A stretch of DNA of 20,038 bases from a virus (IMGVR_UViG_3300035698_013734:1-20038); one strand, 5' to 3'; shown: positions 1 through 19,680, counted from the stretch's first letter. Translations and numbers: made by a program. The notes: generated from the sequence alone by a model not told the origin.

Positions 1-14
1 AAAGGAGAAATAAC

Positions 15-542: not shown

Positions 543-552
543 ACAATAATTT

Positions 553-604: not shown

Positions 605-618
605 TTATGAGTTATTTA

Positions 619-641: not shown

Positions 642-664
642 ATTTAATAGAAAAGGAGAAAAAG

Positions 665-5370: not shown

Positions 5371-5696
5371 CAGAAGGAATTAAAAAAGGTATAAAAGAAC
5401 TAGAAAAAAAAATAAAACAAGAAAAAAAAATAACTAAAGCCTGTATAAAAGAATACAATTTATATATAAATGAACAGATACATATCTTAATGGATTTGTT
5501 AATATCAGATAAAAATATTTCTATTTTAGGTCTAAAAGAAAAGTTTAACATAATAAGATCTCTTTTTAAAATTCCGTATAGATTAAAAAAATTAAACAAG
5601 GAAATTTATAATTCTTATACATTAGCAAATGAGTTAAAATGTGAAAGAAATATATTAGTAGCCTATCTTTATGAATATAATGATTCAGATGTATAA
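5364..5696 (+). CDS. Hypothetical coiled-coil protein, 110 aa
   Basis: Unrecognised protein starting behind TAAGGAG. Residues 5-35 are a highly charged Lys/Glu helix (GIKELEKKIKQEKKITKAC) that should form a coiled coil, followed by a second helical part rich in Leu, Ile and Asn. The gene is even more A/T-rich than its neighbours, with long A-runs. The last codons (GTA TAA) form the upstream box of a candidate promoter at 5691-5721, so the transcript may be renewed right after this gene. Confidence 0.75.
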   Translation: MNTEGIKKGIKELEKKIKQEKKITKACIKEYNLYINEQIHILMDLLISDKNISILGLKEKFNIIRSLFKIPYRLKKLNKEIYNSYTLANELKCERNILVAYLYEYNDSDV

Positions 5697-5721
5697 AAAT
5701 TAGTATTATAATCGTATTATA
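5691..5721 (+). promoter_or_regulatory. Candidate phage promoter, degenerate copy of the shared family
   Basis: GTATAA (5691-5696), exactly 15 bases, then TCGTATTATA (5712-5721). This keeps the spacing of the three better copies in the window (GTATTA, N15, TCGTATAATA) with one change in the upstream box and one in the -10-like part. It lies before the gene at 5739 and would drive that gene and the primase. The upstream box overlaps the end of the preceding coding frame. Confidence 0.5.
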
Positions 5722-5738
5722 TGTAAGGAGTAAAAAAT

Positions 5739-6011
5739 ATGAAAAAAGTATATAGGTTTTATTCAGACCCAGGTCATGGGTGGCTAAGAGTAGACTTTAT
5801 CGAACTCATCCATTTAAATATCTATTCAAAGATATCAACTTGTTCTTATCGAAAGGGAAAGTATGTATATCTTGAAGAAGATAGAGATGCCGGTATATTT
5901 ATAGAAGCAAAAAAAGCATCTGGACAACAAGTTAAGATAAATTTTTTAAAACAAGCAGAGGTATATTCTAATATTAGAAGATACCCAAGTTATAGCGTAT
6001 CGGAGAACTAA
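5739..6011 (+). CDS. Conserved phage hypothetical protein, 90 aa
   Basis: The pattern YSDPGHGWLRV near the N-terminus, then LIHLNIYSKISTCSYRKG, YLEEDRDAG and a closing FIEA segment, is one I recall from a widespread small phage protein of unknown function in bacteriophage replication regions; I have no better name for it. It is soluble and beta-rich. TAAGGAG lies 10 bases before the ATG. The stop is directly followed by the ATG of the primase gene, so the two are probably translated together. A role next to replication is suggested only by position. Confidence 0.8.
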   Translation: MKKVYRFYSDPGHGWLRVDFIELIHLNIYSKISTCSYRKGKYVYLEEDRDAGIFIEAKKASGQQVKINFLKQAEVYSNIRRYPSYSVSEN

Positions 6012-6920
6012 ATGGATTTCTTATCATTATGCCAAGATTATGGAATTGAATATGCAGGAGAAGAAGACAAACATCAAAGAGAAGGTTGGGTTAATATAGC
6101 TTGTCCTTTCTGTTCTGGGCATGATGGATTTCATCTGGGATATAATACATATAGTAATATATTTTCTTGTTGGAGATGTGGAAGAAAAGGAGAAAAATAT
6201 GTTTTAAAAAGGATTCTAGGTTCGGCGTATTCAGAAGAAGTATTAGAAATCTATGGGGGTTATGTTCCTGTAAAAGAGGAAAATATAAAGAAGGTAGGGC
6301 AAAAGAAGTTTATGCCCCCTTCTCCCCTGTATGATTTACAAGAAGAACATATTGCGTATCTAAAAAATAGGGGAATGAATGTAGAAAAAATAAAAAACCT
6401 TTGGAACATCAAAGCCACAGGACCTACATCTAAAATAGATAAAATGGATTACTCCAATAGGATATATATTCCTATTGTTTGGAATGGAAAGGAGGTATCG
6501 TACCAATGTAGATCTATATACAAGGCCAGGATTAAGTACAAGGCCTGTCCTAAAGAAAGAGAAAGAATTGAACATCAAACTATATTATACGGAAAGCAAG
6601 AAGCATGGAATGGTATAGGAATATGTGTTGAAGGAGTTGTTGATGTTTGGAACTTTGGAGTTAAAGCCTTCTGCACATTCGGAATAGGATTTACTCAAGC
6701 CCAAGTAATAGAAATATCCAAACACTTTAAGAAAGTATGTATAGTATTTGATAATGAAGTTCAAGCACAAGAAAAAGCAAAGCAACTCGCTTCCGAACTA
6801 AACTTTAGAGGAGTCAAATCTATAATATATACAATAGAAGGAGGTGATCCAGGAGAACAAAGCAAAGAGAATATAAAAATAATCAGAAAACTTATTATTA
6901 ATAAATTAAAAAGTATTTGA
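6012..6920 (+). CDS. DnaG-like primase with zinc ribbon and TOPRIM domain
   Basis: Makes RNA primers for DNA synthesis. The N-terminal zinc ribbon shows C31-x2-C34 (CPFC) with nearby H37, then C53-x2-C56 (CWRC), matching the CHC2-type DNA-binding zinc module. Residues about 100-200 form the N-terminal part of the catalytic core, with LKNRGMNVEKIKNLWNI (117-133) and YIPIVWNGKEVSYQCR (152-167). The TOPRIM fold starts at ICVEGVVD (catalytic E207) and has VFDNE (D247, E249; the family more often shows DxD). At 302 aa it lacks the C-terminal helicase-binding domain of bacterial DnaG (about 600 aa), as usual for phage primases. The start has CGGAG 7 bases upstream and follows the previous stop immediately. 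It would work with the helicase at 9600. Confidence 0.92.
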   Translation: MDFLSLCQDYGIEYAGEEDKHQREGWVNIACPFCSGHDGFHLGYNTYSNIFSCWRCGRKGEKYVLKRILGSAYSEEVLEIYGGYVPVKEENIKKVGQKKFMPPSPLYDLQEEHIAYLKNRGMNVEKIKNLWNIKATGPTSKIDKMDYSNRIYIPIVWNGKEVSYQCRSIYKARIKYKACPKERERIEHQTILYGKQEAWNGIGICVEGVVDVWNFGVKAFCTFGIGFTQAQVIEISKHFKKVCIVFDNEVQAQEKAKQLASELNFRGVKSIIYTIEGGDPGEQSKENIKIIRKLIINKLKSI

Positions 6921-6934
6921 AAGGAAAGCAAAAA

Positions 6935-7378
6935 ATGAAAAAGAATATTTTAGAAGTAGAAATAAATGAAAAATCCAAGAATGAAATTCATATACATTTT
7001 ACAGAAAAAGAAGGAAAAAGGACAAAAGAAGTAGTTGATGTATATAATGATTCATTAAAAAGAGAAGGATCAAAAATAGGATATGAAGCATCTGGAGATC
7101 AGCATATCAGAGATATAATGAAAATAGTAAATTTAGATGTGTTAAAAAAAATGCAGGAACTTAATATTACTTCAAAAGAGTTATTTATCTTATTTTCCAG
7201 TATCTTGGAAAGATTAACTATCGTATCAAGTAAATTCCAAAGATCTATTGCTCTTTTAGCAGATATGGAACCGATAATAGAAGCCATAAGAAATAGAATG
7301 GAAATGGGAGCAGATGAAGAATCAAACAATATTTTAGAGGAAACAATAAAAAACATTGATAAAAAATTAGGAATATAA
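6935..7378 (+). CDS. Hypothetical protein, 147 aa
   Basis: Unrecognised protein. I place the start at the ATG at 6935 because AAGGAAAG sits 7 bases upstream; a longer reading from TTG at 6917 overlaps the primase stop and has no ribosome site. The N-terminal half is strongly charged and beta-like, and residues about 60-145 are predicted helices, with a possible coiled coil at the end (ILEETIKNIDKKL). There is no metal or nucleotide motif. It closes the primase transcription unit before the gene-free stretch 7379-7696. Confidence 0.8.
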   Translation: MKKNILEVEINEKSKNEIHIHFTEKEGKRTKEVVDVYNDSLKREGSKIGYEASGDQHIRDIMKIVNLDVLKKMQELNITSKELFILFSSILERLTIVSSKFQRSIALLADMEPIIEAIRNRMEMGADEESNNILEETIKNIDKKLGI

Positions 7379-7397
7379 AAAGTAAATCTCAACAATA

Positions 7398-7415
7398 AAA
7401 ATCGGTTCCGATTTT
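7398..7415 (+). terminator. Possible intrinsic terminator
   Basis: AAAATCGG (7398-7405) and CCGATTTT (7408-7415) are reverse complements almost without a spacer, so the RNA stem would be about 7 bp with a GUUC loop and end in a run of U. It lies 20 bases after the stop of the 147-aa gene, where the primase unit would be expected to end. The short U-run makes it weak, and it could instead be a palindromic operator. Confidence 0.4.
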
Positions 7416-7544
7416 AGGCCGTTGTAAGGCCCTTTTAAGCGACTTATTATTTCAAGCGACCGATAGCATTAAAATACAATATAAAAGCAGGGACGGCGGC
7501 TTAAAAGCTCATATTTAGCTATATAAAAATAAAAATAAATAATT

Positions 7545-7575
7545 GTATTAAATATCGGGCAATAATCGTATAATA
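7545..7575 (+). promoter_or_regulatory. Phage promoter, shared family (copy 1)
   Basis: GTATTA (7545-7550), 15 bases, TCGTATAATA (7566-7575), containing a consensus -10 TATAAT at 7569-7574. The same boxes with identical spacing occur at 12766-12796 and 19650-19680. An A/T-rich tract of about 30 bases lies upstream. The transcript would start near 7581 and read toward 7697. Confidence 0.75.
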
Positions 7576-7580
7576 AAGTA

Positions 7581-7675
7581 GTAATAATTTATGAATTATA
7601 GTTCATTCATAAATTTTCTCATCTTATATTTTTTTTACTCGGGTGAAGTCTTTCTTGGCTTCACCCTCTTTTTCT
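7581..7675 (+). ncRNA. Short leader RNA or attenuator between promoter and gene 7697
   Basis: From the presumed start near 7581 the RNA would first meet a perfect inverted repeat AATTTATGAA/TTCATAAATT (7586-7595 with 7606-7615) and then the intrinsic terminator at 7641-7675, so a free RNA of about 95 bases would form. Either this is a small RNA in its own right or transcription into 7697 is conditional. No open frame of useful length lies inside it. The other two strong copies of the promoter have no terminator before their genes. Confidence 0.5.
7641..7675 (+). terminator. Intrinsic terminator upstream of gene 7697
   Basis: GGGTGAAGTC pairs with GGCTTCACCC (7641-7650 with 7657-7666; ten pairs including one G-U) around TTTCTT, followed by TCTTTTTC. 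This is a textbook Rho-independent terminator, placed about 60 bases after the presumed start of the promoter 7545-7575 and 22 bases before the next gene. Confidence 0.8.
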
Positions 7676-7696
7676 TATTTTACGGAGGAATTTTAA

Positions 7697-7984
7697 ATGG
7701 AAATAATACTAAACATTGGCGAAGAAAAGTACAAAATAAGAAGGTTTGATAATCTCAATATGGTTATAGAGAAAGAATATTATAGTGAAAAGAAAGATAT
7801 TTACTTGTGGAAGACTGAGGCATTTGCAAATAATTTTAAATCTTTAAGTGCTTGTCTTTCTAATCTAATATGTTTGGAAGAGGTAGCAATGGATAAAGAG
7901 ATAACCACGCTTGATCTTATCTCGGAAAAAATTGAAGAATCAACAAATTCAATTCTCAAGCAAATGGAAAAAACTTGTCTCTAA
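7697..7984 (+). CDS. Conserved small phage hypothetical protein, 95 aa
   Basis: Starts at an ATG behind ACGGAGG. The layout, with KYKIRRFDNLNMVIEKEY near the N-terminus, a WKTEAFANNFKSLSACLSNL segment and a helical end, resembles a small phage protein of unknown function often found beside replication genes. It is soluble, with a beta-rich N-terminal half and helical C-terminus. It is the first gene after the leader and terminator at 7581-7675, so its expression may depend on terminator read-through. A self-complementary element at 7987-8004 follows the stop directly. Confidence 0.8.
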   Translation: MEIILNIGEEKYKIRRFDNLNMVIEKEYYSEKKDIYLWKTEAFANNFKSLSACLSNLICLEEVAMDKEITTLDLISEKIEESTNSILKQMEKTCL

Positions 7985-7986
7985 AT

Positions 7987-8004
7987 ACCTCCTTATAAGG
8001 AGGT
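7987..8004. promoter_or_regulatory. 18-bp perfect palindrome of anti-Shine-Dalgarno and Shine-Dalgarno
   Basis: ACCTCCTTATAAGGAGGT is perfectly self-complementary. The left half equals the ACCUCCUU core at the 3' end of bacterial 16S rRNA and the right half is its perfect complement, yet no usable start codon follows the AAGGAGG. It lies 2 bases after the stop of the gene at 7697. It could be an operator bound by a dimer, or an RNA hairpin. Confidence 0.6.
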
Positions 8005-8059
8005 CTCGAATCTGAAAATTTAAAAATTATATTACTTAAAAAAAAGAAAATCACATTAC

Positions 8060-8088
8060 TTGACAATATAAAATTGCAAGTATAAAAT
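8060..8088 (+). promoter_or_regulatory. Sigma-A-type promoter for the winged-helix and initiator genes
   Basis: TTGACA (8060-8065), 17 bases, TAAAAT (8083-8088). The -35 box is a perfect consensus and the -10 differs by one base, so host polymerase could use it without phage factors. It lies 25 bases before the start of the gene at 8114 and suggests early expression of the replication initiation genes. Confidence 0.75.
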
Positions 8089-8113
8089 AATAATTTATGG
8101 AGGAATATCACAC

Positions 8114-8383
8114 ATGGCAAAACTTTACAAAGAATTAATGGCAATCGCAATTCCTGAAAAAGCATTTAGAAATGAATATATTTCAGATGGGGCATTTAGA
8201 CTGTTAGCCCTGATGATAAGATTTGGCAGCGAACCTGAATATAGTATGCTCGATCTCCAAAAAGATTTACAAGTTTCAGATGATATATTGAATAAGTACA
8301 TTAATGAGTTGCTTAAATCTGAATTTTTAACCGCCGGTACAGAAGATGATGGAACAATATTCTATAATTTAGATTATATGTAA
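8114..8383 (+). CDS. Stand-alone winged-helix protein related to the next gene's N-terminus
   Basis: The 89-aa protein looks like a single winged-helix DNA-binding domain: IPEKAFRNEYISDGAFRLLALM, then LQKDLQVSDDILNKYINELL as the helix-turn-helix, and a wing at GTEDDGTIFYNL. Aligned by eye it parallels residues 15-75 of the following protein (VPNKLISDNTLNKTSKLIYI and LQQQLNIKS-like helices), so the two appear paralogous. Expression is likely from the promoter at 8060-8088; TGGAGGA precedes the ATG. A role as initiator accessory or regulator of the adjacent origin is an inference. Length and fold exclude a complete initiator. Confidence 0.75.
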   Translation: MAKLYKELMAIAIPEKAFRNEYISDGAFRLLALMIRFGSEPEYSMLDLQKDLQVSDDILNKYINELLKSEFLTAGTEDDGTIFYNLDYM

Positions 8384-8402
8384 TCGTAAGGAGTATTTCA
8401 AT

Positions 8403-9587
8403 ATGGCAGTTGTAAAAGAAAAAATAGATGGTGATTTTACTATCGTACCTAATAAATTAATATCTGATAATACTTTAAACAAAACAAGTAAATTAATATA
8501 CATATATATAGCAAGTAAACCTGATGGGTGGGAAGTTAACAATCTTGATATTCAACAACAATTAAATATTAAGTCCAGAACAACAGTAGCAAATAGTTGG
8601 AAGGAACTTATGTTTGAAGGATGGATATCCAGAATACATTCTAAAACAGTGAAAGGAGGGTTTGATTATCTCCTTCATGCTAAAAAGAGAATAAATGTGA
8701 GTAAATTTGATATTGTAATGGACGGATTTACAGATCAACAACAAAAGATATTTGCAACAAATGAAATAAATAAAAACATCAAGAAAAATAGGGAAAAATT
8801 CGTCATGTCCAAAAAATGGACACCTATTAATACTAAAGGGTTTATTTTAATATCTAACGATATTAAAAAAACACCTATGTCCATTTCAAAAAATGGACAA
8901 TTTGAGTTTTTAATTAAAAATATTAAAGGATCTCATTCTCCCAAAAATAAAAGTAAAATCTCTCCATCTAGTTTTGATAGTTTCTGGCAACTCTATCCAA
9001 AAAAGAAAAAGAAACATACTGCTAAAAAGGAATTCGGATATTTATGTTGTAAAACAGATGCCCCGACCATAGAAAAATTATTAGAATATTTAGAATCCCA
9101 TAAAAATTCAGAACTTTGGCAGAATCGTCCAGATCTTATCCCTTTCCCATCCAATTATATTAAAAAGCAGATTTTCTTAGAGTCCGCCGAGGATATGATA
9201 GTATACGGGGCCAAGAAAAAGAATTTAGAAAACAATAAAATATTTTCAGCAGAGTCCGCCAAAAGTTTATTGTTACAGAAATATTGGCAAATGGGAATTA
9301 AATCAATGGAGAGAACATATAAAAAATATTTGGAAGATGATATTCCAGATAAAGTATGGATAAACATTGCTTTCTTATCAGAATATTATAAAGCTCCATC
9401 AAATCCTGATGCTCCCAGTGTAATAGGAATTGTAAATAACCTATGCAAATATGCTCAAAATAATCAGCATTGGTTAAGAGATGTGCATGAAGTATTTAAT
9501 ATAGACTCTTCTGTTTTTAAAATGGCAGTTAAAGAAATTAATGAATACTTTGGATATACAGTAATAGATGTTGATAAATTAGCATAG
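8403..9587 (+). CDS. Phage replication initiator / helicase-loader-like protein (lambda O type layout)
   Basis: Residues 10-90 form a winged-helix domain typical of phage replication initiators (VPNKLISDNTLNKTSKLIYI, LDIQQQLNIKSRTTVANSW). A low-complexity linker rich in Lys, Asn and Ser (about 105-188) follows. From residue 191 the sequence FDSFWQLYPKKKKKHTAKKEF and later PFPSNYIKKQIF match the helicase-recruiting region of phage replication proteins. The remainder (about 280-394) is helical and unrecognised. The probable task is to bind the origin and deliver the helicase encoded next. Three perfect inverted repeats lie in the linker-coding part (8806-8899), as origins do in lambda O genes. 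TAAGGAG is 10 bases before the ATG; the stop is 12 bases from the helicase gene. Confidence 0.8.
   Translation: MAVVKEKIDGDFTIVPNKLISDNTLNKTSKLIYIYIASKPDGWEVNNLDIQQQLNIKSRTTVANSWKELMFEGWISRIHSKTVKGGFDYLLHAKKRINVSKFDIVMDGFTDQQQKIFATNEINKNIKKNREKFVMSKKWTPINTKGFILISNDIKKTPMSISKNGQFEFLIKNIKGSHSPKNKSKISPSSFDSFWQLYPKKKKKHTAKKEFGYLCCKTDAPTIEKLLEYLESHKNSELWQNRPDLIPFPSNYIKKQIFLESAEDMIVYGAKKKNLENNKIFSAESAKSLLLQKYWQMGIKSMERTYKKYLEDDIPDKVWINIAFLSEYYKAPSNPDAPSVIGIVNNLCKYAQNNQHWLRDVHEVFNIDSSVFKMAVKEINEYFGYTVIDVDKLA
8806..8899. repeat. Cluster of three inverted repeats, candidate replication origin
   Basis: TGTCCA/TGGACA (8806-8811 with 8817-8822), TTTTAATATC/GATATTAAAA (8845-8854 with 8859-8868) and TGTCCATTT/AAATGGACA (8878-8886 with 8891-8899) are all perfect. 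The outer two share the TGTCCA/TGGACA core and the middle one is pure A/T apart from the C-G closing pair. The spacing of their centres is about 43 and 32 bases. They lie in the linker-coding part of the initiator gene, followed by A/T-rich DNA at 8900-8935. Confidence 0.55.
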
Positions 9588-9599
9588 GACGGGAATAAT

Positions 9600-11150
9600 A
9601 TGTTTGATACAAGTTTTACAGATAATTTTATAGAAAGAAAAATAGTAATAAATTTAATTACAGACACAGATTATATAAAAAAAATAAGAGAAAATTTTAA
9701 TATTAAATATCTTCAATCTTCAAGTGCTCGGATACTCGCCAAGTGGTGTTTATCTTATTATGATAAATATAAAGAAGCTCCAGGAAATACCATTGAAAGT
9801 ATATTTTTAGAAAAAGTTAAAAATGGATTAACTGCTTCCAAAGCAGATGATATCGCTTCTATATTAGACGGCCTATCTGAAGAGCAAGATCAATCCCATG
9901 ATAATATTGAATTCTTAAAAAAGCAAACAGAATCATATTTCCTTGAAAGAGGATTGCAAATGCACTTGGAGAAAATTAAATCTAAAATAGCGGAAGGAGA
10001 TTTGGCGGGTGCAGAAATATCTGCTAAATCTTTTATATCTCCCAAAGCAGAATTAATACATTGTATAGATCCTTTGAATTTATCTGCTGACAAATGGGAG
10101 CAAGTATTTGAGGCATCCTTGGAACAGATGATTGAACTCCCAGGTGCTATGAATGATTTTATAGGAGAACATTTTACCAAAACAGGATTTATAGTTCTTC
10201 AGGGAATTGCAAAATCTGGTAAAACTTTTATGCTTTTAGAATTACTTATTAAATCCGCTCTTGCAGGAAAGAATGTTTTATTTGTGCAATGCGGGGATAT
10301 GTCTGAGAACGAACAATTAATGAGATTGGCAGTATATCTTTCTAAAAGAAGTAATAAAGAAAAGTATTGCAAGAAGATGTATGTCCCCTGTTTAGATTGT
10401 TTACATAATCAAAGGGGAACTTGTAATAAAGCAGTACGGAATAATACAACTTCTATAGTTCCTGCTTCATTCAAGCGTGATGAATGGAACCATGGCGATA
10501 TGGTTGAACTATACCATACTTTTCCAGAATATGAGCCGTGTACCGCTTGTAAAAACATTCTCGGTAGTCCTTGGATTTATGAAAGACCTGAAGTTGATCC
10601 TTTAACTTTTGACGAGGCCAGAAAATATGTTGAAAAATTTAGAAAAATTGTAAAAAAGAGGGGAGGGCAATTTAAGTTAGCAACATATCCTAATAATACA
10701 TTAACAACAGCTATGTTGAATGATTTAGTAAGAAGTCTTGCAGAACAAGGATATGGTGTAGAAGTACTTGGTTTAGATTATGCAGATATCATGGGAATAG
10801 AACCGGAGTTTGTAAATGCCGGACCTAGACAAACTCCTGAAAATATTAGATTTCAAAATCTACGAAGATTAACACAGGAATTAGAACTATTATTGATTTC
10901 AGGTACTCAAGCCGCCGCTTCTGCATACAAAAAGAAAAGGCAGGATATGACTGATTTCTCGAACGAGAGAAGAAAATGGGATCATGTAACTGCTGGAATT
11001 GGACTTAATCAAACGAATTGTGAAGAAGAATTAGGAATTATAAGAATGAATAATATTCTTGCAAGAGAAGGGAAGAAGAATAGTTGGCAAGACCTATATA
11101 TACTCAGATGTTTAGAAATGGGTCGTCCTCACCTAGCTTCTTACTTATAA
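9600..11150 (+). CDS. DnaB-like replicative helicase with zinc-binding insertion
   Basis: Hexameric helicase of the RecA-fold DnaB family. Residues 1-150 are a helical N-terminal domain (SARILAKWCLSYYDKYKEAP, YFLERGLQMHLEKI). The ATPase core starts near 190, with Walker A GIAKSGKT (202-209), a beta strand ending CGDMSENEQ (231-239) and Walker B LGLDYADIM (390-398). An insertion of about 70 residues carries C264-x2-C267, C275 and C314-x2-C317 and probably binds zinc. Arginine-finger candidates lie in the last hundred residues. Length 516 aa is near the family norm once the insertion is counted. It directly follows the initiator gene and would unwind at the nearby origin, with the primase at 6012 as partner. 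The start has only GACGGGA upstream and may be translationally linked. Confidence 0.88.
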   Translation: MFDTSFTDNFIERKIVINLITDTDYIKKIRENFNIKYLQSSSARILAKWCLSYYDKYKEAPGNTIESIFLEKVKNGLTASKADDIASILDGLSEEQDQSHDNIEFLKKQTESYFLERGLQMHLEKIKSKIAEGDLAGAEISAKSFISPKAELIHCIDPLNLSADKWEQVFEASLEQMIELPGAMNDFIGEHFTKTGFIVLQGIAKSGKTFMLLELLIKSALAGKNVLFVQCGDMSENEQLMRLAVYLSKRSNKEKYCKKMYVPCLDCLHNQRGTCNKAVRNNTTSIVPASFKRDEWNHGDMVELYHTFPEYEPCTACKNILGSPWIYERPEVDPLTFDEARKYVEKFRKIVKKRGGQFKLATYPNNTLTTAMLNDLVRSLAEQGYGVEVLGLDYADIMGIEPEFVNAGPRQTPENIRFQNLRRLTQELELLLISGTQAAASAYKKKRQDMTDFSNERRKWDHVTAGIGLNQTNCEEELGIIRMNNILAREGKKNSWQDLYILRCLEMGRPHLASYL

Positions 11151-11153
11151 GAC

Positions 11154-11182
11154 TTGCTCGATCTGAAATTTTGTTATATTAT
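11154..11182 (+). promoter_or_regulatory. Sigma-A-type promoter upstream of the thymidine-kinase group
   Basis: TTGCTC (11154-11159), 17 bases, TATTAT (11177-11182), just after the helicase stop and 30 bases before the gene at 11212. Two mismatches in the -35 box and one in the -10 make it moderate in strength. It would give the nucleotide-metabolism genes a transcript of their own. Confidence 0.5.
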
Positions 11183-11211
11183 AAAAATATCAAAATGATA
11201 GTGAGGAAATT

Positions 11212-11316
11212 ATGTCACCTGTTTGTAGTAATTGTTTAAAACCTATGATTGAAATGAAAGATGGATGGATCTGTAATATATGTGGATCCTGGAGGAGTAA
11301 AGATGAGCAGAAATAA
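11212..11316 (+). CDS. Tiny CxxC/CxxC zinc-ribbon protein, 34 aa
   Basis: The ATG follows GTGAGGAAATT with suitable spacing. The protein has C5-x2-C8 and C21-x2-C24, with 12 residues between the pairs, close to the design of the 39-aa protein at 665. It is basic at the end and carries two Trp. The last 14 bases overlap the start of the thymidine-kinase-like gene in another frame, whose ribosome site GGAGG lies inside it. The function is unknown; a metal-binding adaptor is likely from the cysteine pattern. Confidence 0.65.
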   Translation: MSPVCSNCLKPMIEMKDGWICNICGSWRSKDEQK

Positions 11317-11950
11317 AAGAGTAAATGGATGCGTATTTATAGGCTGTCCTGGATCTGGAAAAACATATCAGATGGAGGAAAGGTATAAAGAGATCAATAA
11401 TGTTTTTTCAGAAGAACAAATGTTTAGATTTGAATGTCATGAAAAATCTACAATACATACAATATTCTCAATGATTAAGGATAGACCTTCATTAAAATTT
11501 GTATTCATTGATGAAGCTCATTTTCTTGATACTGATATCAATACATGGAATTTATTTATAGATTATTTGATAGACAAAAAAATTGAAATGTATTTATCTT
11601 CCCTCGATCTGTGGCATGATTGCTCGGAAACCTTAATTGAAAGTAGTATAAAATATAGAGTTAAATACACTCAATATCTTTCTTGTAAATGTGTTTTCTG
11701 TAATAAAGAAAAAGCAAGAAGAGCAGTCAAAGCCGGAGATTTAAAAATAAAGAAGGATTTAAATAAGGATATATACCTTCCTTCTTGTTCTGGGTGCTAT
11801 GATGATGTATGTAAAGGCGTTATTTCAAAACAAAAAGTAGCAGATATACAAAAAGTAATATACAGAGAAGATAACAGAGTAAGTACAAGAAATTACTCTC
11901 ATGGAGAATGGCTGGATTTCTTAAAAACATCTAAAGGATGGAATATATAA
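11303..11950 (+). CDS. Thymidine-kinase-like protein (type II TK family)
   Basis: Would phosphorylate thymidine to dTMP with ATP. Walker A GCPGSGKT (14-21) is followed by FIDEAHF (68-74), the counterpart of the TK DEAQF motif carrying the catalytic glutamate. SSLDLWHD (99-106) aligns with the TK GLDxDF segment. The lasso-type zinc module is present as C130-x2-C133 and C162-x2-C165, with KARRAV between them. These elements and their order are those of type II TKs, but the intermediate residues diverge, so altered substrate use is possible. The start at 11303 is chosen because TGGAGGAG lies 8 bases upstream; the earlier ATG at 11261 is out of step with any ribosome site. At 215 aa the length is normal. 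The stop overlaps the next ATG. Confidence 0.68.
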   Translation: MSRNKRVNGCVFIGCPGSGKTYQMEERYKEINNVFSEEQMFRFECHEKSTIHTIFSMIKDRPSLKFVFIDEAHFLDTDINTWNLFIDYLIDKKIEMYLSSLDLWHDCSETLIESSIKYRVKYTQYLSCKCVFCNKEKARRAVKAGDLKIKKDLNKDIYLPSCSGCYDDVCKGVISKQKVADIQKVIYREDNRVSTRNYSHGEWLDFLKTSKGWNI

Positions 11951-12153: not shown

Positions 12154-12173
12154 CTATTATGAAAGGAATAGCA

Positions 12174-12587: not shown

Positions 12588-12629
12588 CAACTGCCATTGT
12601 TATTTCATTGTTGACCTCTATCAACAATG
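12581..12629 (+). repeat. Two back-to-back perfect hairpins at a gene end
   Basis: GAAATAACAA/TTGTTATTTC (12581-12590 with 12597-12606) and CATTGTTGA/TCAACAATG (12606-12614 with 12621-12629) share base 12606. The first spans the TAA of the gene at 12174. Neither is followed by a T-run, so they are more likely message-end protection or processing sites than terminators. Both have 6-base loops, CTGCCA and CCTCTA. Confidence 0.6.
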
Positions 12630-12720
12630 CCCATCATGCTTCACACAAGGCAATTTAACAGCTTTTTTACGCCTTTATAGGGTATTTGTATTCAATATAA
12701 ATTAAAAGCCGTTATGTGCC

Positions 12721-12754
12721 AATATAGACCGTTTAAAAGCGGTCTATATTTTTT
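12721..12754 (+). terminator. Intrinsic terminator
   Basis: AATATAGACCG (12721-12731) and CGGTCTATATT (12740-12750) form an 11-bp perfect stem with loop TTTAAAAG, followed by TTTT. It ends the transcript that carries the helicase-to-zinc-ribbon genes and insulates the promoter that starts 12 bases further on. Confidence 0.78.
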
Positions 12755-12765
12755 ATAAAAAATAT

Positions 12766-12796
12766 GTATTAAATTTATCCATAAAATCGTATAATA
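12766..12796 (+). promoter_or_regulatory. Phage promoter, shared family (copy 2)
   Basis: GTATTA (12766-12771), 15 bases, TCGTATAATA (12787-12796) with -10 TATAAT at 12790-12795. It lies directly after the terminator and would start the methyltransferase-to-clamp-loader transcript near 12802. Confidence 0.78.
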
Positions 12797-12849
12797 TGGT
12801 ATAAAAAATAATTATTTATATTATATTATAAAAATGGAGATATAAAAAT

Positions 12850-14013
12850 ATGGTTTCTTATATTATTATAATTGGCGAAGCAATCGCAGAATTAAAAAAA
12901 CTTCCTGCTAAGTCTGTTGATTGTATAGTAACATCCCCTCCTTATTTCGGTTTACGAGATTACGGACACGAAGATCAAATAGGATTAGAAAAAACTCCTT
13001 TTCAATATATCAGAATGATTTTAGCTTTGTTCAAAGAGATGCATAAAGCATTAAAAGATCAAGGCACAATATGGTGGAATATAGGAGATTCTTATATGTT
13101 TGATTCGGCATACAAGAATATGAAATACAAGATGTCCACACAAAATCTTTTGGGAATACCTTGGATGACCGCTTTTGCAGTGCAAGGAAGGATTTTAACT
13201 CCTTTTGAAATGTTTGGAGATATATCGGAGGATATGAAAGTAGCAATCAAATCCAAAGATTGGAAAGCAATGAAGAGTATTCGTAACCGTATAAGAGAAT
13301 ATGATTTATTAAGTAAAGAAATAAAGGCCGGAAATAGATTTGTATTGAGGCAAGATATAATATGGCATAAACATAAAGTCATGCCAGAATCTGTTAGAAA
13401 CAGATGTACGAAATCTCATGAGTACATATTCATGTTTTCCAAAGATAATAAAGCTCCTGTAATTTATAATTCAAATGATACAAATGAATGGAGTTTATCT
13501 CCTAACATGGAAGAAACAATTGAGAAACCATGCGAAGAAGGAATGAAAGATGTAAAGAGATGGCGTGGGTGTATGTATTACTTTGATTATCTTGCAATAA
13601 GGGAAAAATCAAAGTTGAAATGGAATTCTGCCATAAATTTCGGTCTTGGAGATAGAAGTAAATATAATGGTTCCGCTTTTTCAGAAACAAAAGGATTAGA
13701 TTCTTTTCACGAAGACAAAGTAAGGAACTATAGAAATAAAAGAGATGTATGGACTGTCAATACTTGTGCAAGTGCAAAAGATTCCCACCTTGCTCCTTAC
13801 CCTAAGAAATTAATAAGACCTTGTATATTAGCGGGGTGCCCAAAAGGAGGAACTGTATTAGATCCTTTTTCTGGGTCGGGTACTACAGGAGAAGTAGCCA
13901 TGAGTCTTGATAGAAATTATATAGGGATAGAATTAAATCCTGAATTTGCAGAGCATTCTATAAAGAAATTGGATGTAATTCTTTCCCAAACTAAACAAAC
14001 TGGATTGATGTAG
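12850..14013 (+). CDS. Beta-class DNA methyltransferase (N4-cytosine or N6-adenine)
   Basis: Transfers a methyl group from S-adenosylmethionine to a base in DNA. The catalytic motif IV TSPPY occurs at 28-32, followed by FGLRDYG, and the SAM-binding motif I is DPFSGSGTT (338-346) near the C-terminus, then NYIGIELNPEF. Catalytic motif first and SAM motif last is the beta-class order; TSPPY occurs in both N4-cytosine and N6-adenine enzymes, so the target base cannot be decided. The middle 200 residues should contain the target-recognition region. TGGAGAT precedes the ATG. It is the first gene after promoter 12766-12796, and no restriction endonuclease is nearby, so self-protection of phage DNA or regulation is more likely than a restriction system. 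Confidence 0.92.
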   Translation: MVSYIIIIGEAIAELKKLPAKSVDCIVTSPPYFGLRDYGHEDQIGLEKTPFQYIRMILALFKEMHKALKDQGTIWWNIGDSYMFDSAYKNMKYKMSTQNLLGIPWMTAFAVQGRILTPFEMFGDISEDMKVAIKSKDWKAMKSIRNRIREYDLLSKEIKAGNRFVLRQDIIWHKHKVMPESVRNRCTKSHEYIFMFSKDNKAPVIYNSNDTNEWSLSPNMEETIEKPCEEGMKDVKRWRGCMYYFDYLAIREKSKLKWNSAINFGLGDRSKYNGSAFSETKGLDSFHEDKVRNYRNKRDVWTVNTCASAKDSHLAPYPKKLIRPCILAGCPKGGTVLDPFSGSGTTGEVAMSLDRNYIGIELNPEFAEHSIKKLDVILSQTKQTGLM

Positions 14014-14027
14014 AAAGGAGGGTGATA

Positions 14028-14186
14028 ATGTCAAAAAAATTGAAAAATACTGTATCCAAATTATGTAATTTTATGGATAAAGAAGTAGAGTGGGTAGATA
14101 GAAGAAGAATTCCATTAGGATTAACATTTATTGGATATATAAGAAAATTATTATTAGAAGATATTATTAAGCATAGAGATAAATAA
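14028..14186 (+). CDS. Small basic hypothetical protein, 52 aa
   Basis: Starts behind AAAGGAGGGTG with ideal spacing. The protein is strongly basic, with a Lys-rich N-terminus and RRR at 25-27, then a hydrophobic/basic helix (FIGYIRKLLLEDIIKHRDK). It may bind nucleic acid, or fold as a short ribbon-helix-helix-type dimer, but no motif proves either. It sits between methyltransferase and 202-aa genes in the same orientation with short spacers. Confidence 0.7.
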   Translation: MSKKLKNTVSKLCNFMDKEVEWVDRRRIPLGLTFIGYIRKLLLEDIIKHRDK

Positions 14187-14203
14187 TACAGGAGGAAAGT
14201 GTA

Positions 14204-14812
14204 ATGTACGAAAGAAAGCATTTTGTTAAAGTAGCCAAGAAGTTAAATGAAGTAATGGAAATTGATCCACCTATTGATGTTAAGTTAGATGATGAAAAAC
14301 TTAAAATAGCAATAATAGAGGCATCAGATTATATCTCTCCTGAGGATAATTTTAGTAATGTTGTTCTCGGATTGATAGATTATTTGAAAAAAGGCGGTTC
14401 GGAAACTGAGAAAAAGGCAAAGAAGAAAATTACAAACATCAAGAAACCATCGGTATTAGGTCAAGCAAAGAAGAAAACGATTGCTTCAGAAGCAAAACCT
14501 GTTGTAGATAAAAAGAAAATTGCAAAAGCAATACAGCCAGGTAAAGGAAAAATAAAAACTATCTCCAATACTATAATGCAAGTGTTAATACTTGCGGGAG
14601 AATCAGGATTAAATAAGACTGAGATTTTTTTGAAAACTTTGAAGGAACACATGGATGAGTTTGGAGCTGAACCTCGTAAACATCCTAGTAAACTTTGGAA
14701 ATACATTCAATCTTATGTGCCTAACAAATTTACAACTTTTAAAGAAATAGAAGTGCTTGTTTCAGAAGACAAAAGAGATGGGGAAACGGTTTATTTCATT
14801 CCAAATATTTAA
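14204..14812 (+). CDS. Hypothetical protein with Lys-rich linker and winged-helix-like end, 202 aa
   Basis: Unrecognised protein with three parts: a helical N-terminal domain (1-65), a Lys/Ala-rich flexible linker (about 66-115, KKAKKKITNIKKPSVLGQAK and similar), and a C-terminal domain (120-200) containing IMQVLILAGESGLNKTEIF, which looks like the start of a winged-helix fold, and a beta hairpin near the end (EVLVSEDK, GETVYFIP). The strong ribosome site AGGAGG lies 9 bases before the ATG. Directly upstream of the clamp gene, a DNA-binding accessory role in replication or transcription is plausible, but inferred from charge and position. Confidence 0.7.
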   Translation: MYERKHFVKVAKKLNEVMEIDPPIDVKLDDEKLKIAIIEASDYISPEDNFSNVVLGLIDYLKKGGSETEKKAKKKITNIKKPSVLGQAKKKTIASEAKPVVDKKKIAKAIQPGKGKIKTISNTIMQVLILAGESGLNKTEIFLKTLKEHMDEFGAEPRKHPSKLWKYIQSYVPNKFTTFKEIEVLVSEDKRDGETVYFIPNI

Positions 14813-14833
14813 TTCAAAAGAGAGGTAAATCTA

Positions 14834-15883
14834 ATGAATAAGAATGAACTACTTAAAGCAATGGAGATAGTCAGACCGGCTATTGGAACTCCCGAAACAG
14901 ATCAAGGAGATTGCTTTGCATTTACTAAAGAGGGATACATTGCAACTTACAATGATTCCATTTCTATAAAACATCCTTTTGATATAGGTTTTGTAGGAGC
15001 ATGTAATGCTTCTAATTTACATAAGCTGATATCTAAAACAAAGAGGGATGAAATAACAATAAAAGAAGAAGAAAATTATTTACATATCAAAGCCGGTTCT
15101 GCAAAAGGTAAAATGGTTTTTGATAAAGAAATTACTATGCCTATTGATGATATTTCTCATATCGAAGGAGATTGGCAAAGGGTACCTGATAATTTTATAA
15201 CTGGACTTGAAACTTGCATTTTTTCTTGTTCCAAAGATCCAGATAAGGCTTTATTATCTTGTATTAAAGTCTGTAAAGATGGATATATGGTGGGTGGTTG
15301 TCATTCAAGAATTACAAAATATGATCTTTCTTCTAAATTCAAAATGGATGATTTTCTAGTTCCTTCAGATGCGGCAAAGTTTCTAATTAAATTTGCAGTT
15401 ACCCATGTTGCAGAAGGTTTAGGGTGGTTGCATTTTAAAGCCGAAGATAATTCTATATTCTCTTGCCGTACTTATGAAGAAGAATATGAAAATTGGTATT
15501 CTCAAATATTTGATGATTTTTATTCAGATGCAGTAAAAACAAAGTTTCCAGATAGAATTCATAATATCCTTGATAAAGCTGAGATATTTACTGATTCAGA
15601 TACTAAAGCGGCGTTAATAGATAAAGATGCTACCAATTCTGTTCTTATTAAAATTATAAAAAATAAGATGGTGTTCTCTGCTGAAGGTTCTAGTGGTAAT
15701 TTCAAAGAAGTTGTTAAGATAGATAGTGAAGATGCCGATGGTTTAGTATTTAAATGTAATATCAAATATTTAAAAGATATTATGGGTATGAGTCAAGATG
15801 TTGTAATTGATCTCAATTGCATGATGTTGAAGTTTGAAGAAGACAACTGGAAACATATAATAGCATTAGTAAATATGAAGTAA
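14834..15883 (+). CDS. Sliding-clamp-like protein (DnaN/beta family, divergent)
   Basis: Likely forms the ring that tethers polymerase to DNA. The length (349 aa) and alternation of strands and helices fit the three-domain bacterial beta clamp (about 366 aa). The N-terminus resembles a clamp start (LLKAMEIVRPAIGT), with AFTKEGYIATYNDSISIKHP following. The C-terminal segment, FKCNIKYLKDIMG followed by VIDLNCMMLKFEEDNWKHII, matches the beta-clamp end, where a YLxDhL helix is followed by strands. Family motifs are weak, so identification leans on fold pattern and context: the polymerase and clamp loader ATPase follow in the same operon. AGAGAGG precedes the ATG. No catalytic residues are expected. 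Confidence 0.65.
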   Translation: MNKNELLKAMEIVRPAIGTPETDQGDCFAFTKEGYIATYNDSISIKHPFDIGFVGACNASNLHKLISKTKRDEITIKEEENYLHIKAGSAKGKMVFDKEITMPIDDISHIEGDWQRVPDNFITGLETCIFSCSKDPDKALLSCIKVCKDGYMVGGCHSRITKYDLSSKFKMDDFLVPSDAAKFLIKFAVTHVAEGLGWLHFKAEDNSIFSCRTYEEEYENWYSQIFDDFYSDAVKTKFPDRIHNILDKAEIFTDSDTKAALIDKDATNSVLIKIIKNKMVFSAEGSSGNFKEVVKIDSEDADGLVFKCNIKYLKDIMGMSQDVVIDLNCMMLKFEEDNWKHIIALVNMK

Positions 15884-15892
15884 GGAGATATA

Positions 15893-17188
15893 ATGGGATT
15901 CTTTATAAAAGGGAATTTCGATTCTGTTTCTAGACCAAAAGGAAAAGTGCTATCTTGTTATAAATGTGGGTATTATAGGACCTCGCAAAATCCAAAAATT
16001 GAACCTCAGGGAAATTACAATTCTGATATTTTAAATATTGCAGTTGCCCCTTCAAGAGATTCAGATTTATCGGGTAGTATTTATAGCAAAGACTTTAACA
16101 ATCTTCTTGAAAAGTATTTTAGAAAATTTAATCTCGATCTGTATGAAGATGCTTTAAATTCATGTTCTGTCAGATGTTTACCTCTTGACAAGGAGGGGCT
16201 TATTACTGCCCCTCCTGGTCTTAATATAGAATGTTGTAGATCTAAATTAATAAATACTATAAAAAAGCAAAAGCCTAAAGTAATTATTGCTTATGGGCTC
16301 GAAGCATTAAAAGGACTTGTTGGGCATCTATTTTCTGGTAGTAGAGCAGATATTGGAAAAAGTATTGATAAATGGAGAGGTTTCTGTATTCCAGATCGTA
16401 CTCATAACGCATGGATATGTCCGGTTTATCCTCCTAAGTTTTTATTAGATAAAAATGGAAAAGATAAACAGATGAAAGTAAAAAGATTGCTTTTTCGTCA
16501 AGATTTGAAACAGGCAATTGGTTTAGTCAATGTTCCTATAGAACATATAGACGAGAAACAAATCGTAAAATGTATTAGTTCTGAAACGGCAATTCGTGTA
16601 ATGCTTAAATTATTAAGAAGGACTGATAATTTTCTTTTATCTTTTGATTATGAGACAACAGGCCTCAAACCTTATGATGATGGGCATAATATAATTTGTG
16701 TTTCTTTTACATATCGAAATAAACAAGGATGTATTAAATGTTATAGTTTTCCAGTAGATATGGAGAATAAGATTTTTTGCAAAACATATAAGAAAGTTAT
16801 GTTAGCAAAAAATATAGAAAAAACCGCACACAATATAAAATATGAGGACAAATGGACTTACAAGTTTTTTAGGATTCGTCCTCAAAGTTGGAAAATAGAT
16901 ACAATGTTAGCTTCTCATATTTCAGACAATAGATCTGCTATTACAAGCCTTAAAATTCAAGTATACATTAACTTTGGTGTATTGGGATACGATAAAGGCG
17001 TACACTCATACATTAAAGGCACAAAAGGAGCAGATAATAAAAAGAGTACAAATGATAAAAATACTTTATTAGACTATTTTAATCAGGGCGGAAAAGAAGA
17101 AGTATTATTGTATTGCGGTTTAGATTCTCTTTTTGGATACCTTCTTGCAGAAATGTATATAAAAGAATTGGGGTTATCTGAATGTTAA
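15893..17188 (+). CDS. UDG-like domain fused to DnaQ/PolA-type 3'-5' exonuclease
   Basis: Two domains. Residues 15-205 resemble family 4 uracil-DNA glycosylase: C22-x2-C25, C95 and C115 are placed as the four iron-sulfur ligands, VRCLP (93-97) matches the family VKCRP, KVIIAYGLEAL (129-139) is a core strand, and VYPPKFLL (178-185) replaces the terminal HPS motif. The usual GEAPG is replaced by VAPSRDSD, so glycosylase activity is doubtful. Residues 245-425 are a proofreading exonuclease: FDYETTG (D252, E254), HNIKYED (313-319) and a YCGLDSLFG motif with D411. It overlaps the polymerase gene by 7 bases, so together they equal one UDG-Exo-Pol protein split in two. TAAGGAG precedes the ATG. Confidence 0.85.
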   Translation: MGFFIKGNFDSVSRPKGKVLSCYKCGYYRTSQNPKIEPQGNYNSDILNIAVAPSRDSDLSGSIYSKDFNNLLEKYFRKFNLDLYEDALNSCSVRCLPLDKEGLITAPPGLNIECCRSKLINTIKKQKPKVIIAYGLEALKGLVGHLFSGSRADIGKSIDKWRGFCIPDRTHNAWICPVYPPKFLLDKNGKDKQMKVKRLLFRQDLKQAIGLVNVPIEHIDEKQIVKCISSETAIRVMLKLLRRTDNFLLSFDYETTGLKPYDDGHNIICVSFTYRNKQGCIKCYSFPVDMENKIFCKTYKKVMLAKNIEKTAHNIKYEDKWTYKFFRIRPQSWKIDTMLASHISDNRSAITSLKIQVYINFGVLGYDKGVHSYIKGTKGADNKKSTNDKNTLLDYFNQGGKEEVLLYCGLDSLFGYLLAEMYIKELGLSEC

Positions 17189-18591
17189 ATACATCTGGGA
17201 ATATTAAATTAAAAACTAAAGATGCTTACGATCTATTTCATCAAGGGTTCTTGGCAATGTCGAGAGCAGAAGATTACGGGTTTAAATTAGATTTAGAATA
17301 TTATATCCGTACATTAGAAGATTTAGATAAAAAATATAATCGGTATTATAGTAAATTCTATGATAGTCAGATTTCTTGTATTATGAGAGACCGTTACAAA
17401 AAGAAGTTTAATGCTACATCTGATGACCAGTTAGCGTATGCTCTTTTTGTAAAACTCAAGATTCCAATATATAAATATACTGATAAACACAAACCTTCTG
17501 TGGATACAGATACAATATCCCATTTGGATGTTCCTGGGCTTGGTCACCTCATTAAAATGAGGAAGATATATAAAGTTAGGGGATTTATACAAAACTATAT
17601 GAGGGAGGCTAATGGGAGTATAGTAAGACCTAATTTTATGCTGAATATAATAACATACAGGTCTTCTTGCCTTGATCCAAATATGCAGAATGTACCAAAG
17701 AGAGATATGTATGCTAATAAGTTAATCAGGACCGGATTTATTGCAAGAGAAAATTGTAGAATGGGAGAGTCAGATTTTTCAGGTATGGAAGTATCTGTCG
17801 CTTATTGTTATCATAAAGATCCCCAAATGTATACTTACTTGACTGCTCCTGGTGCTGATATGCACTCAGATATAGCAAAACAAATATTCTTAATATCAGA
17901 TTCAGATTTTAATAAAAAAATCAAAGATTATAAGAATTTAAGACAAGAAGCAAAAAGTTCTTTTACATTTGCCCAGTTTTATGGTGATTATTATGCCAAT
18001 TGTGCAAGATATATAAGCAATAATATGGGATTACCTTTAACAGGCACATGGACTAAAGATGATGGTTTACCTTTTATGGGGACTACTATCGGAGAACATT
18101 TTATAAATGAAGGTATCCATAATCATGAAGAATTTGAAAAGCATGTAAGAGATATCGAAAAAGACCTTTGGTATAATAGATTTCCTGTATATAGAGAATG
18201 GAAAGAATCATTATTAAAGCAATATCATAAAGATGGATTTATTGATACTTTAACAGGTTTTAGAGTACAGGGAAGAATGGATAAAAATGCAGTTATAAAT
18301 TATCCAGTTCAAGGGTCAGCATTTCATATTCTTCTTTGGACTTTTATTCATACAGATAAATTTATAACTGCAAATAAAATGGAGAGTAGATTACTGGGTC
18401 AGATTCATGACGCATTAGTATCTAATTATGCTGATGGAGAGGAGGAGACAGTTATCAAACAAATCCATAAATTAGGTACTCAAGATGTAAGGCAAGTTTG
18501 GGATTGGATTTCTATACCTTTGGATATAGAACATGATATATCTGAATTAAACGGCAATTGGGCAAACTTAAAAGAATATAATATAAATTAA
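17182..18591 (+). CDS. Family A DNA polymerase, polymerase domain only
   Basis: Template-directed DNA synthesis. Motifs in order: DPNMQNVPKR (165-174), motif A ESDFSGMEVS with catalytic D198, O-helix RQEAKSSFTFAQFYGDY (from R254, K258), NYPVQGSA (373-380) and motif C GQIHDALV with D410. In most Pol I enzymes motif C reads HDE; here the glutamate is alanine. In the O-helix one extra residue lies between Lys and the aromatic residue compared with E. coli Pol I. The 3'-5' exonuclease is on the preceding gene (overlap ATGTTAA), and no 5'-nuclease is present, so 469 aa equals the palm, fingers and thumb. No clear ribosome site precedes the ATG apart from GGGG at 17171, so translation is probably coupled. 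Confidence 0.93.
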   Translation: MLNTSGNIKLKTKDAYDLFHQGFLAMSRAEDYGFKLDLEYYIRTLEDLDKKYNRYYSKFYDSQISCIMRDRYKKKFNATSDDQLAYALFVKLKIPIYKYTDKHKPSVDTDTISHLDVPGLGHLIKMRKIYKVRGFIQNYMREANGSIVRPNFMLNIITYRSSCLDPNMQNVPKRDMYANKLIRTGFIARENCRMGESDFSGMEVSVAYCYHKDPQMYTYLTAPGADMHSDIAKQIFLISDSDFNKKIKDYKNLRQEAKSSFTFAQFYGDYYANCARYISNNMGLPLTGTWTKDDGLPFMGTTIGEHFINEGIHNHEEFEKHVRDIEKDLWYNRFPVYREWKESLLKQYHKDGFIDTLTGFRVQGRMDKNAVINYPVQGSAFHILLWTFIHTDKFITANKMESRLLGQIHDALVSNYADGEEETVIKQIHKLGTQDVRQVWDWISIPLDIEHDISELNGNWANLKEYNIN

Positions 18592-18604
18592 TAGGAGGAA
18601 AGAA

Positions 18605-19519
18605 ATGGCATTGTATCATAGAATAAGACCTAAAACATTGGACGATATATATGGGAATGAAACATTAATAACAGTTGTAAAAAGTATTCTGGAAAGATCA
18701 GAAAGACCTCATGCTTATTTTATTACTGGTCCTTATGGTTCTGGTAAGACAACAACTGCGAGAATAATTGCTAATATGTTCGGAGCAACGGAAAAGAATA
18801 AATGTTTACAAGAGATAAATTGTTCCGACTTTAATGGTATAGGGACAATCAGAAAAATTAGAACAGATTCTGGGTTTAAATCTTTAACAGGAAATACAAA
18901 AGTATTCTTGATTGATGAGATGCATGAACTTTCTAAAGCAGCTCAAGATGGAATATTAAAACAGTTAGAAGACCCTCAACCTAATACAGTATTTATATTA
19001 TGCACAACTGAACCTACTAAGATATTACCCACAATCAAAAGTAGATGTATGTTGTTGAAAACTGAAATACTTTCAGATAAAGATATGAGAAGTTTAATAT
19101 TATCAACTTGTATGCACGAAGATATTGATATTCCTGAAACTTGTTTGCATAAGATAATAGAAGTCGCAGAAGGCCATTCTAGAGATGCAATTAATCTTTT
19201 AGAGTCTATAATGACTTTAAATGATGAGAAAATGATGATGAATGTTTTAGATATGCCGGAAAAGAAAAAAGAGGAAATAATTAATCTTTGCAGAATAATG
19301 ATGAAGAAATCATCATGGAAACAAGTCGCTGAAGTACTAAATGGTTTAAAATATGAAGATCCAGAAGCAATTAGAAGAGTGGTTCTCGGGTATTGTACCA
19401 CCTGTTTGTTGCGGGGAAATCCTAAAGCGGCTGTGATAATGGAAGAATTTAAAGCCCCTTTCTTCTATAATGGTTTTCCAATTGTAGTCTATGCTTGTTA
19501 TTCCGCTTTACATGGGTAA
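18605..19519 (+). CDS. DnaX-like clamp loader ATPase
   Basis: AAA+ ATPase that opens and loads the sliding clamp. ALYHRIRPKTLDDIYGNE at the start is the gamma/tau signature (normally YRPxxFxDVVGQ). Walker A is GPYGSGKT (42-49), Walker B FLIDEMHELS (D104, E105), sensor 1 FILCTTEP (130-137) and the arginine finger SRC (146-148). The four-cysteine zinc module of bacterial DnaX is missing, and at 304 aa the protein ends after a short helical collar, without the polymerase-binding tail of tau. AGGAGG precedes the ATG. Placed after clamp and polymerase genes in one operon, it completes the loading apparatus; no second loader subunit is seen in the window. Confidence 0.92.
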   Translation: MALYHRIRPKTLDDIYGNETLITVVKSILERSERPHAYFITGPYGSGKTTTARIIANMFGATEKNKCLQEINCSDFNGIGTIRKIRTDSGFKSLTGNTKVFLIDEMHELSKAAQDGILKQLEDPQPNTVFILCTTEPTKILPTIKSRCMLLKTEILSDKDMRSLILSTCMHEDIDIPETCLHKIIEVAEGHSRDAINLLESIMTLNDEKMMMNVLDMPEKKKEEIINLCRIMMKKSSWKQVAEVLNGLKYEDPEAIRRVVLGYCTTCLLRGNPKAAVIMEEFKAPFFYNGFPIVVYACYSALHG

Positions 19520-19601
19520 AATAAGCCTTTAAATACGCCTTTACAGGGTTATTTTTATTTTTACGGTATAATCATCGTTTAAATTTAAAAGCCCTGTAAA
19601 G
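19518..19601 (+). promoter_or_regulatory. Mutually exclusive stem-loops after the clamp loader gene
   Basis: Pairing 1: AAAATAAGCC (19518-19527) with GGGTTATTTT (19546-19555), one mismatch, followed by TATTTTT, a possible terminator starting on the stop codon. Pairing 2: CTTTACAGGG (19539-19548) with CCCTGTAAAG (19592-19601), perfect. The two use the same GGG and cannot coexist. The interval also has a lone TATAAT (19567-19572). Confidence 0.4.
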
Positions 19602-19649
19602 AGCCGTTTAAGACTTGCAAAAAATAATTAAATAATTTGCAAAGTATTT

Positions 19650-19680
19650 GTATTATATATCGGTTTACAATCGTATAATA
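19650..19680 (+). promoter_or_regulatory. Phage promoter, shared family (copy 3)
   Basis: GTATTA (19650-19655), 15 bases, TCGTATAATA (19671-19680) with -10 TATAAT at 19674-19679. An inverted repeat TTGCAAA/TTTGCAA (19615-19621 with 19636-19642) lies just upstream and could hold a regulator. It would start the transcript of the gene at 19713. Confidence 0.78.

Follow-up and report, generated by a model that had tools for sequence, protein, structure and literature searches.

The window, an entire viral contig of 20,038 nucleotides (IMGVR_UViG_3300035698_013734:1-20038), carries copies of a two-box element, GTATTA-N15-TCGTATAATA, that are likely to serve the replication arm of the phage as middle promoters, recognised by host core RNA polymerase in complex with a sigma-like protein that the phage itself encodes. 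Computation shows the repeats together with where and on which strand they lie, a -10 box common to the lineage and confined after the sigma gene, and a -35 box that co-varies with the sigma protein. What is new is a sigma/promoter lineage with a fixed -10 and a switching -35, in which the C-terminal domain of the sigma protein is not recognisable as region 4.

A two-box element repeated between gene blocks

We scanned the whole window for the 31-base pattern (gene calls were made with a simple script) and found three exact matches, all on the plus (coding) strand and each preceding a block of replication or repair genes (Table 1). The exact scan and the gene map confirmed the three identical copies that the initial annotation had placed between gene blocks, as well as its fourth, degenerate copy, which differs at two positions. 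The annotation had further described a -35 box other than TTGACA, lying 18 bases away from the -10; the non-TTGACA box held, and the spacer to TATAAT is 17-19 bases, depending on which six bases are counted as the -35. The conserved block is slightly longer than first described (TGTATTA on the left, AATCGTATAATA on the right), and a search of the window and the adjoining contigs found no TCGTATAAT elsewhere.

Table 1 Promoter copies and neighbouring features in the window
Feature	Position	Strand	Description
Sigma-like gene, 170 aa	2231..2743	+	Sigma70 region 2 and helical C-terminal domain; predicted promoter reader
Promoter copy 4	5691..5721	+	Two mismatches (GTATAA / TCGTATTATA); between the sigma-like gene and primase
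Primase	6012..6920	+	Conserved neighbour downstream of the sigma-like gene; anchor for finding the lineage
Promoter copy 1	7545..7575	+	Exact match; precedes the replication-initiation and DnaB-like helicase block (7697 on)
Hairpin, predicted leader of copy 1	7586..7615	+	z -5.45 for 7582-7700
Intrinsic terminator-like hairpin	7641..7666	+	Downstream of copy 1, ahead of its first gene (7697)
Canonical TTGACA-17-TAAAAT site	8060..8088	+	11/12 matches; host-type promoter-like, contrasts with the copies
Intrinsic terminator-like hairpin	12721..12750	+	13 pairs, T-run; just 5' of copy 2
Promoter copy 2	12766..12796	+	Exact match; precedes the methyltransferase, clamp, DNA polymerase and clamp loader block (12850 on)
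Long inverted repeat (CTTTACAGGG/CCCTGTAAAG)	19537..19604	+	Upstream of copy 3; z -4.72
Promoter copy 3	19650..19680	+	Exact match; precedes the block running into UvsX-like recombinase/SbcCD-like genes on adjoining contig L054

The exact pattern had no match in 60 dinucleotide shuffles, and matches with two mismatches averaged 0.03 per shuffle. A 16-base two-box word (6-mer, gap, 10-mer) present three times was found in 0 of 30 shuffles versus one in the window, and this family ranked first in the window in an unbiased search of all gapped words. The exact copies are all intergenic and in sense orientation, intergenic sequence making up 8% of the window, and of the four longest intergenic regions, three (318, 262 and 193 nt) hold an exact copy and the other (241 nt, at 543-783) holds none. 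Copy 4 runs over the stop codon of the gene before it, and its -10 lies directly 5' of the Shine-Dalgarno sequence of gene 5739. Its predicted transcript start falls inside that Shine-Dalgarno sequence, for which reason we first considered it a chance match. We reversed this view since the promoter family of the relative G021, described below, has exactly the same geometry, one G021 copy agreeing with copy 4 in both place and geometry; copy 4 is therefore probably a genuine, weak member of the family.

Copy 2 is preceded by a terminator-like hairpin that marks a clean operon boundary. The copy 1 leader (7582-7680) contains two predicted hairpins, the second of them terminator-like, ahead of the first gene, so the copy 1 transcript may be attenuated or may yield a short RNA; the leader is a candidate attenuator or small RNA. 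Strong hairpins were predicted upstream of the promoter in the intergenic regions 12588-12766 and 19520-19650, which have GCCTTTAYAGGG and GCCGTTTAA in common, and TTAAAAGC is common to these two regions and 7379-7545. The inverted repeat upstream of copy 3 holds an extra plus-strand GTATAAT (19566-19572), followed by C and without a -35 box. TTGACA-type sites in the window were not enriched over shuffles, and Rfam and ARAGORN returned nothing on the window. At 553-606 we observed a tRNA-like minihelix, consisting of a GGGCAG acceptor-like stem, a small hairpin, a perfect T-arm (GTTGAG-TTCGATT-CTCAAC), TGCCC and then TTTT, with no anticodon arm and no ARAGORN or Rfam call; a similar T-arm/acceptor element lies near 500-600 in the relative L058. 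Among the coding sequences, the Family A DNA polymerase is split in two genes (N-terminal part 15893-17188, polymerase domain 17182-18591), as it also is in relatives such as G007, and the DnaB-like helicase (9600-11150) has an apparent four-cysteine insertion (CLDC..TCNK..PCTACK) between two matched stretches.

Two further contigs, L054 and L055, overlap the window at 99.9% identity and represent the same phage. The right end is extended by 9.3 kb of L054, which holds recombinase and SbcCD-like genes. L055 contributes 7.2 kb past window position 771, and its terminase and portal genes run on the opposite strand. No further copies were found in these 16.5 kb. The window and L055, otherwise 99.9% identical, diverge abruptly at 771 (window 1-770), reflecting strain variation or an assembly branch. 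L055 (reverse complement) also has 1.7 kb of non-coding sequence among late genes (619-2302), with a six-copy repeat of period 28 at ~894-1070. A search for a leftward extension with protein 15-542 found nothing, and no host or provirus came up when genome contigs were scanned with the ligase. Across all IMG/VR, the exact pattern occurred in 29 contigs: 2 self contigs, with the pattern between genes in sense orientation, and 27 non-self contigs, whose matches we rejected as the same element, 26 being inside ORFs (mostly one antisense coding family/context), the 27th having no sense gene start downstream, and none of the 27 lying upstream in sense.

A fixed -10 box across the lineage

Dozens of relatives were gathered by terminase and primase searches. 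No close cultured relative of the lineage was found: the best primase matches among cultured phage records were ~28% identical, and the lineage sigma protein (G021 copy as query) had no match in 50,697 phage records. The window's own consensus was not above chance in the relatives, and conservation therefore had to be sought as analogous families. In G021 (58 kb), blind motif discovery revealed CCTTAAATGAAA..GTATAATA six times on the replication strand, and in G033 (82.5 kb, first 80 kb searched) it revealed five copies of CATTAAGGAAATGG..GTATAATA, one of the five having a slightly altered -35 and lying on the other strand. The window and these relatives share one register, a 7-mer, 17 bases and then GTATAATA, the 7-mers aligned on the -10 being TGTATTA in the window and CCTTAAA and CATTAAG in G021 and G033, respectively. 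The -35 thus varies by phage (GTATTA in the window; CCTTAAATGAAA and CATTAAGGAAATGG in the others), and that of the window is common to no relative found, including its nearest sigma neighbour, G058. At most copies in G021 and G033 the predicted transcript begins just before or within the Shine-Dalgarno sequence, the same layout as window copy 4. In most relatives, exact copies were too scarce for motifs to be discovered blindly, and the shared -10 emerged only from anchored analysis.

In the upstream regions of 60 lineage contigs, GTATAAT occurred 90 times in sense and 16 times in antisense, versus 4 and 6 in control contigs. It is among the most strand-biased 7-mers, and the sole top one that is neither purine-rich nor a start-region word. 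The following base is A at 80% of sites, the sites lie most often 22-31 nt from the start codon, and ATATAAT, CTATAAT and TTATAAT showed no comparable enrichment in the lineage contigs.

A small sigma-like gene lies upstream of the primase gene, on the same strand, in 49 lineage contigs. Sense and antisense occurrences of GTATAATA in these contigs numbered 62 and 0 after the sigma gene, 1 and 3 before it, and 5 and 1 on the other strand (Fisher p 2e-11); counting sites by position alone, not timing, 70 lie after the sigma gene, 5 before it and 6 on the other strand. GTATAAT was present at the sigma stop codon in 25 of the 49 contigs, versus 29 of 807 later genes (3.6%; p 5e-20), and relatives without the sigma-primase pair had 0 sense and 1 antisense GTATAATA in 17 kb of upstream sequence. 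Approximately 11 of the 49 sigma-bearing contigs have no GTATAAT site, some of them perhaps owing to a varied -10, e.g., GTATAACA/GGATAACA in G034. No enrichment of canonical TTGACA promoters was detectable before the sigma gene in the lineage contigs.

Other repeated elements were observed in individual relatives. Upstream of successive genes in L153 (17400-20350, minus strand) lie six cores resembling those of hammerhead ribozymes (CTGATGA..GAAAC), three of them with sub-threshold matches to the Rfam RAGATH-1 hammerhead. L177 (7828-9670) has six copies of a structured-looking element of ~45 nt, GGGCC-N11-GAAACCC..ATGCC, near gene starts and with no Rfam match. Three ~55-bp elements ending in ATCGAGGGG lie upstream of genes in L145 (G016; 2218, 5516 and 6570, minus strand), and CCTAAATAA / GACGAATACCG repeats ~32 bp apart lie before genes in both arms of L131/L132 (G018; ~3031, 10885 and 35543).

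The sigma-like protein and co-variation with the -35 box

The protein encoded at 2231-2743 is a sigma factor as judged by sequence and predicted fold. It matched Pfam PF04542 (Sigma70 region 2; E 8.6e-11), a family matched by 47 of 47 aligned lineage members, and the lineage proteins are mostly 150-190 aa. Its AlphaFold model (pLDDT 89) had sigma factors as the top Foldseek matches, with a region 2 fold match to 8b3z at a probability of 1.00 and a TM of 0.76 by target. When modelled on its own from 47 sequences, the C-terminal domain gave a confident five-helix fold (pLDDT 91), for which Pfam, profile and fold searches returned no confident match to sigma region 4; its best Foldseek match was 3hug, a -35-binding sigma domain, at E 2. 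The domain would be either a very divergent region 4 or else another kind of domain. The lineage might also represent a new kind of sigma factor, in which region 2 is joined to a DNA-binding domain that is not region 4, with -35 specificity changed repeatedly and the -10 (G-TATAATA) fixed; we hold this only tentatively and consider it rather doubtful. If it were true, each phage would have its own private promoter code.

When the promoter sites were listed in the order of the sigma tree, the -35 changed with the sigma clade. The similarity of the -35 box (-26..-13) was compared with each half of the sigma protein, giving a Mantel r of -0.48 for the C-terminal half and -0.14 for the N-terminal half. 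Once base composition, the distance between primases and the remaining half of the protein were controlled for, the partial r of the C-terminal half was -0.45 with all sequences and -0.27 to -0.31 with near-duplicates removed at three cut points, a value reached in 0 of 2000 permutations in every case, whereas the N-terminal half was at zero. Shared descent can inflate such permutation tests, and the primase control should remove much of this, not necessarily all. A correlation between the N-terminal half and the -12..-1 region weakened or vanished after controls and was not retained. These results indicate that among the lineage phages the -35 varies in step with its expected reader, a pattern predicted if the C-terminal domain reads the -35 and not predicted if host sigma reads the sites.

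Known systems, rival readings and a proposed middle programme

The initial annotation had compared the class in principle with T4 middle promoters, which are read by host sigma70 with MotA/AsiA. The TATAAT -10, the non-TTGACA upstream box and the replication genes are alike, but the present copies lack a MotA box and a true sigma-like gene is linked to them. The MotA box wwTGCTTTA was found 3 times in the window, where 2.5 matches would be expected; every one was on the minus strand and away from the copies, so we dropped the MotA reading; we also dropped a T4 late reading (TATAAATA as a -10 without a -35; 9 matches versus 5.9 expected, none at the copies). Promoters dependent on a phage sigma factor appear to be the better model, and by analogy the class resembles those of phiEco32 (gp36) and 7-11 (gp47) rather than T4 MotA promoters. 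The phage encodes a region-2 sigma, a repeated sense element lies upstream of phage genes, and the promoters are confined, by position alone, after the sigma gene. Bacillus phage SPO1, with its sigma cascade of gp28 (middle) and gp33/34 (late), offers a further likeness in that an early sigma gene product turns on middle genes, as is proposed here; it differs in its promoter boxes, which are not known to be related to those of the present class.

The small sigma factor gp36 of phiEco32, with the host core polymerase, reads tAATGTAtA without a -35, at promoters of middle and late genes whose starts lie 6-8 nt downstream (PMC8948821, PMC4331800, PMC4281155). In both phages a small phage sigma would take the host core polymerase to promoters before middle genes (here predicted), the -10 elements have the core GTATA in common, and a 6-8 nt start would fit the short leaders of the window; the phiEco32 promoter, however, is a single element that also serves late genes, whereas the window copies read TCGTATAATA with a conserved -35 that varies by phage, and the class is nearly confined to the replication arm. 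Salmonella phage 7-11 also has a small sigma factor, gp47, that uses the host core polymerase, with late promoters GTAAtg-16-aCTA (PMC8948821). These are bipartite, with -35 and -10 elements and a small phage sigma (the reader being predicted here), but both boxes differ in sequence from the window copies, the genes are late and 7-11 lacks a middle class. ECF-type sigma factors (SigE and SigL structures) share the region 2 fold, and differ in that the C-terminal domain of the window protein has no confident match to region 4. Text searches found no published description of this promoter class, an absence that incomplete literature coverage makes weak evidence.

The copies could instead be host sigma-A promoters served by a phage activator or appropriator similar to MotA/AsiA, the -35 region being the activator site and the sigma-like protein a co-factor only. 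TATAAT is indeed the housekeeping -10, canonical spacing is possible and the -35 is non-canonical; however, TATAAT is enriched only with a preceding G, a requirement not expected of host sigma, the -35 similarity tracks the C-terminal half of the sigma protein, MotA-box words are at chance, and no MotA/AsiA-like protein was found among 20 scanned proteins of the window (the genome being incomplete). We consider this explanation unlikely. Plain strong host promoters, duplicated within the phage and in need of no phage factor, are a still less probable explanation despite the good TATAAT and AT-rich upstream sequence, given that the sites are confined after the sigma gene, that the -10 is common to diverse relatives while the -35 varies, and that control contigs are unenriched. 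There is also no TTGACA; no copy was among the 60 best sites for the canonical sigma-70/sigma-A arrangement (TTGACA, 16-18 from TATAAT).

An operator or replication element, such as a repressor site or iteron, was tested and dropped as highly improbable: the sites of the lineage are almost all in sense orientation (62:0 after the sigma gene), the start-codon distance has a distinct peak, and copies 1 and 2 are not palindromic, although copy 3 is nearly so (GTATTAT..ATAATAC, found on both strands by the pattern scan) and structured DNA lies upstream of the copies. The shuffles refute chance AT-rich repeats, for which only the 32% GC of the window speaks; the lineage statistics are also against them, leaving this reading a negligible probability.

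For middle promoters read by a phage sigma factor, we infer that a holoenzyme forms, as well as where and when transcription starts and what each of the two protein domains does, as follows. The sigma gene would belong to an early block, presumably transcribed by the host polymerase with host sigma, and its product would redirect the core polymerase to G-TATAATA promoters. Region 2 would read the constant -10 and the C-terminal domain the -35 box (TGTATTA in the window phage), turning on the later replication blocks for initiator/helicase, polymerase/clamp and recombination. In half of the lineage, the first such promoter is predicted right where the sigma gene ends. In the window, the sigma gene precedes all four copies. 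The proposal of a phage-specific class with a non-TTGACA -35, tied to this gene, is well supported by the confinement of the -10 after orthologous sigma genes in 49 relatives and by the co-variation of the -35 with the C-terminal half of the protein. The class had been left as middle or late. Of the two, "middle" fits better, because the copies lie ahead of replication genes and the terminase/portal arm has none in front of it; the late genes, from which the class is absent, need another mechanism.

For a large phage lineage seen here in metagenomes alone, these findings predict how transcription is organised: the end of the early phase, the onset of the middle phase and the protein responsible for the changeover. 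In practice, operon starts in the lineage genomes can be recognised by the eight-letter -10 word when strand and position relative to genes are taken into account. Furthermore, the lineage offers a set of naturally occurring pairs of sigma factor and -35 box with a constant -10, which makes the evolution of promoter specificity directly testable by domain swaps and could provide orthogonal sigma/promoter pairs.
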